Assembly (NCBI RefSeq): GCF_000340795.1
Contig: NC_020294.1
Location: forward strand, 248,001-312,000
DNA: 64,000 nt
Direction of reading: 5' to 3'
From: Candidatus Kinetoplastibacterium desouzaii TCC079E
GTDB taxonomy: Bacteria > Pseudomonadota > Gammaproteobacteria > Burkholderiales > Burkholderiaceae_B
Position numbers and translations under genes: made by a program. The notes beneath the pieces were generated by a model. It worked only from the letters and a program-made list of their open reading frames with translations. It searched no databases and was not told where the DNA came from. Below, piece by piece: positions 14,961 through 16,796 of the stretch; position 1 is the stretch's first letter; every line of letters begins with the position of its first letter.

Positions 14961-14995
14961 GCTTGCGTAATTGTTTTACGCAAGCATTTGTTTGA
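14961..14995 (+). terminator. Rho-independent-like terminator after infC
   Basis: A perfect 10-bp stem (GCTTGCGTAA at 14961-14970 with TTACGCAAGC at 14976-14985) and 5-base loop are followed by a T-rich stretch. It ends the thrS-infC unit just before gshB and supports the view that no ribosomal protein genes follow infC here. Confidence 0.65.
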
Positions 14996-15002
14996 TAATT
15001 TT

Positions 15003-15968
15003 ATGCATGTATTATTTATAATAGATCCAATAGAAACTCTTTTTGCTTATAAAGATACTTCTGTGGATATAATGATTACTTTAATTGAAAGAAATAATGT
15101 AATTAGTATAGCCAATCAAAAAGATTTATTTATTGAAGATGGTAAGGTAAAGGTTAAATCTCAAAGAATTTATTTACAAACAAATATTAATTTACATAAA
15201 AATGAATGGTTTTATACAAACTCTTCTTCAAATATAGAGGAAATTAGTTTGTTTGATGTTGTGTTGGTTAGGAAAGATCCTCCATTTGACATGGAGTATC
15301 TTTATATGACTCATATACTTGAATATGCAAAAAAAAGTGGTGTTAATATTATAAATAACCCAGCGTCAATTCGTAATTATCCTGAGAAATTATCAATTTT
15401 GAATTTTCCCGAACTTATAGCTCCGACTATAGTTTCTAGTAGTATTTTTGAATTACAAAAATTCTGTTGTAAACATCAAGATGTGATTGTGAAACCGTTA
15501 GATGGTATGGGTGGAACTGGTATATTTAGACTGAAGAATAATGACTATAATTTAAATGTTATTTTAGAAACAGTTACAAATAATAATAGTTCTACAGTTA
15601 TGGTGCAAAAATACATTCCAGAAATATTAAATGGAGATAAAAGGGTAATCTTAATAAATAACAAGATCGTTCCTTTTTGTTTAGCTAGAATTCCAAAAGA
15701 AGGAGAGACAAGGGGCAATTTAGCAGTAGGAGGAAGAGGTGTTGCTCAGACTCTTTCTAAAAATGATATAAGAATAGCAGAAATAGTTAGTGATTTTTTT
15801 ATTGATAAAGGCCTTGCCATAATAGGTTTGGATATTATAGGAGATTATTTAACTGAAATCAATATAACTAGTCCTACTTGTTTTGTAGAGATTAAAAAAC
15901 AAACTCAATTTAATGTATCAGGAATGTTTGTTGACTATTTAGAAACATTGTTATTAAATAAAACTTAA
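15003..15968 (+). CDS. gshB: Glutathione synthetase
   Basis: GshB joins gamma-glutamylcysteine and glycine with ATP. The ATP-grasp features are clear: IVKPLDGMGGTGIFRL in the middle, RIPKEGETRGNLAVGGRG as the flexible loop, and GLDIIGDYLTEIN with metal-binding Glu/Asn near the C-terminus. I start at ATG 15003 (MHVLFIIDPIE), since GshB proteins begin a few residues before this DPIE/DPI block; a TTG at 14988 would overlap the preceding terminator. The 321 residues are normal. gshA is not adjacent. The next gene is the HPr homologue, leaving out the EIIA gene usually found between. Confidence 0.94.
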   Translation: MHVLFIIDPIETLFAYKDTSVDIMITLIERNNVISIANQKDLFIEDGKVKVKSQRIYLQTNINLHKNEWFYTNSSSNIEEISLFDVVLVRKDPPFDMEYLYMTHILEYAKKSGVNIINNPASIRNYPEKLSILNFPELIAPTIVSSSIFELQKFCCKHQDVIVKPLDGMGGTGIFRLKNNDYNLNVILETVTNNNSSTVMVQKYIPEILNGDKRVILINNKIVPFCLARIPKEGETRGNLAVGGRGVAQTLSKNDIRIAEIVSDFFIDKGLAIIGLDIIGDYLTEINITSPTCFVEIKKQTQFNVSGMFVDYLETLLLNKT

Positions 15969-16024: not shown

Positions 16025-16276
16025 ATGATTTTAGCTAAAAATGTAATTCTTAATAAAGAATGTGGTTTGAATGCTGTTGAGTCATCTAAACTTACTAAAA
16101 TTGCAGGTAAATTTAGATGTGAGATTTTTATATCATGTGATGCTAGACGAGTCAATGCGAAAAGTATTATGGGTATAATGATGTTGGCCGCAGGAAAAGG
16201 TAAACTTATTAAAATAGAAGCATCTGGTATAGATGCTGAAGAGGCTATAAATTCTTTAGAATGCTTTTTTTCTTAG
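16025..16276 (+). CDS. ptsH: HPr-like protein lacking the phosphorylatable histidine
   Basis: This 83-residue protein aligns along its length with HPr, the phosphocarrier of the phosphotransferase system. In functional HPr the active site reads GLHARxS. Here it reads GLNAVES at residues 14-20, so the catalytic His (canonical 15) is Asn16 and the conserved Arg (canonical 17) is Val18. By contrast the regulatory block RRVNAKSIMGIMMLAAGKG is intact, including Ser47 (canonical Ser46, target of HPr kinase). PTS phosphotransfer should be impossible. No ptsI or EIIA gene lies beside it; the next gene, dut, is convergent. It may be a remnant or serve a Ser-based regulatory role. Confidence 0.85.
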   Translation: MILAKNVILNKECGLNAVESSKLTKIAGKFRCEIFISCDARRVNAKSIMGIMMLAAGKGKLIKIEASGIDAEEAINSLECFFS

Positions 16277-16286
16277 ATTTGTATTT

Positions 16287-16796
16287 TTATTTTCCTGTTG
16301 AACCAAAACCACTATTCCCTCTTGGATTATTTTCTGAAAAATTTTCTACCAGATCAAATATAGGCTTGATTATTGGTAGAAATATCATTTGTGCTATTCT
16401 TTCTCCTGGGTTAATAAAAATGGACATGTTAGAATCTTTATGATTTCTATTCCATGCGCTGATGAAAATAGTACCTGAATAATCTGCGTCAATTACTCCA
16501 GCAGTATTTCCAAGTATTAGTCCTTTTTTATGCCCAAGTCCAGATCTTGGTAGTATGATTGCCATCATGTTAGATTTATTCATATGTATAGCTATACCAG
16601 TTGATATTAATGCAGGTATAGCTCCTGGTTTTATCTCAATTGTTTCTTCTACACAAGCATATAAATCAATACCTGCAGCAAGTTCGCTTTGATATTTAGG
16701 TAGTTCGCCATTTTTTTTTAAGAAATCATTAGTGATTTTAATCTCAATTTTTGGTGATAACAATTTGTCAATTAAATTTTCTGATTCATGTTTCAT
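16287..16796 (-). CDS. dut: dUTP diphosphatase
   Basis: dUTPase hydrolyses dUTP to dUMP, keeping uracil out of DNA and feeding dTMP synthesis. All five motifs are present in order: AGIDLYA, PRSGLGHKKG, GVIDADYSG (catalytic Asp), PGERIAQ, and the C-terminal flexible RGNSGFGSTGK. At 169 residues it is slightly longer than the usual 150 because of an N-terminal polar extension, and a later start is possible. It lies downstream of coaBC on the minus strand, as in relatives. Confidence 0.94.
   Translation of the reverse strand: MKHESENLIDKLLSPKIEIKITNDFLKKNGELPKYQSELAAGIDLYACVEETIEIKPGAIPALISTGIAIHMNKSNMMAIILPRSGLGHKKGLILGNTAGVIDADYSGTIFISAWNRNHKDSNMSIFINPGERIAQMIFLPIIKPIFDLVENFSENNPRGNSGFGSTGK

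Follow-up and report, generated by a model that had tools for sequence, protein, structure and literature searches.

HPr receives two inputs, PEP via His15 and ATP/Pi via Ser46, which are hard to separate in free-living bacteria. Crh of Bacillus has the HPr fold with His15 replaced (Gln) and the Ser46 block kept, is phosphorylated at Ser46 by HPr kinase (HprK) and carries out no phosphotransferase system (PTS) transfer (PMC9631020); it is a paralogue in bacteria that also have a normal HPr and a complete PTS, and it works through CcpA. Regulation by the HprK-PtsH axis of Xanthomonas campestris needs Ser46 but not His15, PtsH H15A being active and S46A inactive (PMC6916182), and in Brucella HprK/P, an enzyme that Pi inhibits, accepts NPr H30A but not S61A as a substrate for phosphorylation (PMC2937029). 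A ptsH gene without ptsI is described in Bartonella and Ureaplasma, and no report that the phosphorylatable His has been lost from their HPr was found in the available portion of that source (PMC2405797). Candidatus Kinetoplastibacterium (spelled Kinetoplastidibacterium at NCBI) comprises obligate symbionts inside trypanosomatid protozoa. The main text of a 2013 protein paper does not mention the PTS or HPr (PMC3616161), and the accessible part of a 2025 proteome paper reports both HPr and HprK in the symbiont of Angomonas deanei, taking them as ordinary parts of carbon catabolite repression, with no discussion of His15 or enzyme I found in that part (PMC12645908).

An HPr without His15 in the window and across the genus

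Eight genomes of the genus were compared, from G000, the genome from which the window (the whole stretch analysed, 64,000 nucleotides) was taken, to G007. G000 is a single contig of 833,125 bp with one HPr copy, which lies in the window (Table 1) and is encoded by an open reading frame running from ATG to TAG without a frameshift. Profile searches placed the protein in the HPr family (PF00381; TIGR01003, 72.6 bits, cut-off 47.9), and its AlphaFold model (mean pLDDT 92.6) has as its nearest PDB fold the HPr 3ihs (TM 0.96). The initial annotation had claimed an Asn codon at site 15, Val for the conserved Arg two residues on and an unchanged NAKSIMG block around Ser46, and direct reading of the codons confirmed all three. 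With neither His15 nor Arg17, and with no enzyme I in the genome, the window protein falls outside the definition of the phosphocarrier PtsH; it does carry Ser46 within the conserved block, as an HprK substrate does.

Table 1. Positions of the genes and sites discussed (window coordinates unless a genome or contig is named).
Feature	Position	Strand	Evidence
gshB (glutathione synthase), upstream neighbour of ptsH	14988..15968	+	PRK05246, 383.7 bits
ptsH-derived gene, HPr-fold protein without His15, 83 aa	16025..16276	+	PF00381, 76.5 bits (cut-off 23); AlphaFold; fold match
Asn at HPr site 15 (phosphohistidine site; Asn16 of the ORF), AAT	16070..16072	+	direct reading
Val at HPr site 17 (Arg17 of the active centre; Val18 of the ORF), GTT	16076..16078	+	direct reading
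NAKSIMG block with the regulatory serine	16154..16174	+	invariant in 7 genus members, synonymous codon changes
Ser46 codon (Ser47 of the ORF), AGT	16163-16165	+	direct reading
dut (dUTPase), convergent downstream neighbour	16287..16796	-	PRK00601, 155.1 bits
hprK of the window genome	G000:738501-739433		TIGR00679, 329.6 bits (cut-off 240)
Locus of the free-living relative G008	gshB 1858070-1859011; EIIA-Man from 1859044; HPr from 1859479; EI from 1859806		
infC-dut junction of G004, without gshB and HPr	L149:19900-20000 and L150:1-130		

Profile searches found HPr in seven of the eight genus genomes, G004 being the one that lacks it. Sites 15-17 read NAV in G000 (n=1), NAT in G001-G003 (n=3) and DVS in G005-G007 (n=3), so that His15 is replaced by N or D in 7/7 and site 17 is V, T or S; the alignment with related symbionts that had been proposed as a check therefore gave a missing histidine throughout the genus. 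A sequencing or assembly error at site 15 was rejected, since six separately assembled relatives also lack His15 and Arg17. NAKSIMG with its Ser46 is invariant in all seven, with the Ser46 codon alternating synonymously between AGC and AGT and all four GCN forms occurring at the Ala of the block. Every free-living Burkholderiales HPr of the fetched set has HAR at sites 15-17. A DNA search pattern for HPr genes whose site 15 does not encode His hit only two among 399 genomes of the order, each belonging to this genus. The pattern is blind to site-15 codons beginning with C, and when site 15 was left free it picked up 27 of the 30 free-living HPr loci. The other non-His matches of a wider contig search were eight from Bacillales with QAR (Crh-like) and one from Alicyclobacillaceae with LAR; this last homologue (L013:4967-5258) has Leu at site 15 and an intact NAKSIMG.

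Loss of the relay genes around ptsH

G008, a free-living relative, has the order thrS...gshB-EIIA-Man (ptsM)-HPr-EI (ptsI). In the window 56 nt separate the end of gshB from HPr and 10 nt separate HPr from dut, which sits where the free-living relatives have ptsI; the ptsM of those relatives lies between gshB and ptsH. As gshB and dut directly flank ptsH, both of its PTS neighbours have been removed and ptsH itself kept, and gene order thus indicates that an ancestral gshB-ptsM-ptsH-ptsI run has lost the two genes on either side of ptsH. The HPr of free-living Alcaligenaceae and Burkholderiales is orthologous by synteny (thrS-infC-gshB-...-ptsH) and by sequence, and shares with the genus the Ser46 block and an HprK partner; it differs from the HPr of the genus in its HAR motif (sites 15-17), in its FGExE tail and in the ptsM and ptsI genes next to it.

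Neither enzyme I (PF05524) nor EIIA-Man (PF03610) was found in any of the eight genus genomes, G000 included, while each is present in 53/53 of the other genera sampled. The initial annotation, which saw no ptsI or EIIA gene near the locus and expected PTS transfer to be lost, was right on the first count, enzyme I being missing genome-wide and one EIIA-Ntr lying elsewhere beside hprK; on the second, the lack of enzyme I and EIIA-Man, together with the absence of His15 across the genus, supports the loss of transfer. That EIIA-Ntr gene, ptsN, survives in G000 only among the genus genomes (L138:3520-3978; G000:738019-738477); it is intact, carries an IPHG motif and scores 100.6 bits against TIGR01419, below the cut-off of 138.7, and no phosphoryl donor remains in the genome.

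The best equivalog model for the window protein was PRK13782, which we take to be the Crh model, and the score of 69.4 bits is far under the cut-off of 123. Orthology with Crh by transfer from Bacillales was rejected on this low score and because gene order at the locus matches that around ptsH in free-living Alcaligenaceae. The window protein is ptsH by descent and on present evidence resembles Crh in its working, His15 being replaced and Ser46 kept. Where Crh is one of two such proteins, the genus has only the changed HPr, which unlike Crh has lost Arg17 too and has no PTS relay left to accompany it. It is best read as an independent counterpart of Bacillus Crh.

HprK, selection and the joint loss in G004

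A partner HPr kinase, which had been suggested for the window protein, is encoded in the genome: an intact hprK lies at another chromosomal place than ptsH (Table 1), and HprK (PF07475) was found by profile search in exactly the seven genus genomes that bear HPr. The G000 protein has an intact P-loop (GESGLGKS), HGVF with the catalytic His, the Asp pair (ADD) and the LEVRGLG signature; its nearest solved relative is the HPr kinase/phosphatase 1ko7 (E 2.9e-61), and 62 of 72 sites that are invariant in ten free-living HprK are retained by all seven HprK of the genus. Just 5' of hprK in G001 lies an ORF of 107 aa (L139:3206-3529) that by eye is like the ribosome hibernation factor Hpf.

Within clades, Nei-Gojobori dN/dS over six pairs that are not independent was 0.054-0.101 for HPr (only 84 codons) and 0.036-0.049 for HprK, which is among the most constrained genes measured. 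The reference values were 0.035-0.075 for argB, 0.030-0.102 for infC, 0.081-0.128 for thrS, 0.158-0.204 for coaBC, 0.149-0.333 for gshB and 0.238-0.435 for lspA, and the coding sequences thus indicate strong purifying selection on both HPr and HprK, with dN/dS as low as in argB and infC. Of the positions with 95% or more conservation across 30 free-living HPr, all seven genus HPr kept 3/9 in residues 9-21 vs 11/12 in residues 42-56 (Fisher p = 0.016). The conserved sites that were lost are mainly 10, 12, 15-18, 24 and 80 together with the FGExE tail, which we take from established HPr-enzyme I structures to be on or near the relay face.

G004 (741,697 bp) has neither gshB nor HPr in the interval from infC to dut, its gene order being thrS-infC and then dut-coaBC-lspA-ileS; no gshB turned up elsewhere in its genome, and HprK has been lost too, at a locus apart from HPr. 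Both proteins are accordingly present in 7/8 genus genomes and neither in 1/8, the co-loss being a single event. In a thrS tree with free-living relatives as the root, G004 falls outside the seven HPr-bearers (100/99); its branch is long, and the tree uses a single gene. With G004 in this position, parsimony would have His15 change to Asn once, in the stem of those seven (H15N), and Asn change to Asp in the clade of G005-G007 (N15D).

A probable Ser46 switch and its alternatives

We consider it likely, from comparison of the genomes, that this protein is a Ser46 switch without the histidine, driven by HprK and derived from the one HPr available, and that HPr in these symbionts probably persists purely for on/off regulation. 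Under this reading an obligate endosymbiont has had its single HPr converted in place to a histidine-free regulatory protein, whose Crh-like working arose by loss of the His and not by duplication. The PEP-driven relay itself is gone, as the sequences show, with enzyme I, EIIA-Man, His15 and Arg17 all missing. As the conserved HprK and its studied homologues suggest, HprK would phosphorylate Ser46 with ATP, and inorganic phosphate would inhibit HprK or make it reverse the reaction, so the ratio of HPr to P-Ser-HPr could report the ATP, phosphate or glycolytic-intermediate status of the symbiont. The initial annotation had suggested that the protein may act only through Ser phosphorylation or binding, perhaps with an HPr kinase, and comparative genomics lends this support, HPr and HprK having been lost together in G004. 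Residues 17 and 18, which are changed in the genus, may also contact HprK, and docking of HprK on this HPr may therefore be altered.

CrgA of Neisseria, a regulator of the LysR class, is an example of an HPr-linked output. No member of the LysR family (PF00126) turned up in the seven genus genomes that were searched (G000-G006), and an output of the CrgA kind is therefore not supported; the most likely output would be one phospho-form binding a metabolic enzyme or other protein directly. A two-component regulator confined to the HPr-bearers is likewise not supported as the output, since each genus genome searched has one response regulator, G004 included.

If the HPr were instead a remnant in decay, left over from the lost PTS and persisting by chance, with site 15 having drifted after enzyme I was lost, the disappearance of His15, Arg17, Leu12, Gln24 and the FGExE tail would be what relaxed constraint on the relay face predicts, and the advanced genome reduction, with ptsN surviving only in G000, would be in keeping with it. 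Decay was rejected, however, on the low dN/dS of HPr (0.05-0.10 within clades) and on the Ser46 block, which is invariant despite synonymous changes; the frame is intact in 7/7 species, HprK is among the most constrained genes measured, and HPr is reported by proteomics (PMC12645908). This bears out the earlier argument against simple decay; the relic reading is already largely refuted, and we regard it as very improbable. It is also very unlikely that HprK and HPr have ceased to interact, the kinase being retained to act on some other substrate and HPr to serve in unrelated binding: the stronger constraint on HprK than on HPr would fit such a separation, but the presence and absence of the two proteins are identical, and the Ser46 segment that faces HprK is the best conserved part of HPr. 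Still less credible is a phosphoryl-accepting or phospho-mimicking role for Asp15 or Asn15 through which an altered relay survives. Three genus members do have Asp15, and the His15Asp HPr of Escherichia coli is a studied, folded protein (1cm2, 1cm3, 3ccd), but enzyme I, the phosphoryl donor, is absent in 8/8 genomes, the Asn15 of four species is unable to form an acyl phosphate, and Arg17 is lost as well.

A less likely but possible alternative is that HPr in its unphosphorylated form binds a partner constitutively, as a moonlighting protein on an enzyme, and that HprK is retained mainly to tune or block the binding, which would make Ser46 a brake and not the signal. Partners of unphosphorylated HPr or Crh are known, among them glycogen phosphorylase and Rsd (solved complexes 9s8k, 4xwj) and, for Crh, MgsA (PMC13130090), and the effect of HprK in Xanthomonas falls on PtsH activity (PMC6916182). 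This explanation nevertheless overlaps strongly with that of a Ser46-driven switch, the difference being which form is active.

Under the preferred reading of a Ser46 switch, evolution has deleted one of the two inputs of HPr in this genus, and the other is kept under selection, which argues that the HprK-Ser46 branch alone carries a fitness-relevant function in Betaproteobacteria. The Xanthomonas system differs in this respect, its HPr retaining His15 and its genome having ptsI and both EIIA genes. The Angomonas symbiosis, whose host is genetically tractable, would offer a minimal two-protein system. More speculatively, and in our estimate improbably, the whole regulatory PTS may have been stripped genus-wide to HprK and a histidine-free HPr switch that is possibly a main sensor of energy or phosphate status linking symbiont metabolism to the host, and possibly a stand-in for RapZ. 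The last suggestion stems from the retention of rapZ by G004 only, which lost the pair, a reciprocity that is one event and possibly chance. The rapZ gene of G004 lies at L154:16285-17148; the gene is absent in G000-G003 and G005-G007, and is present in all 13 other genomes searched.
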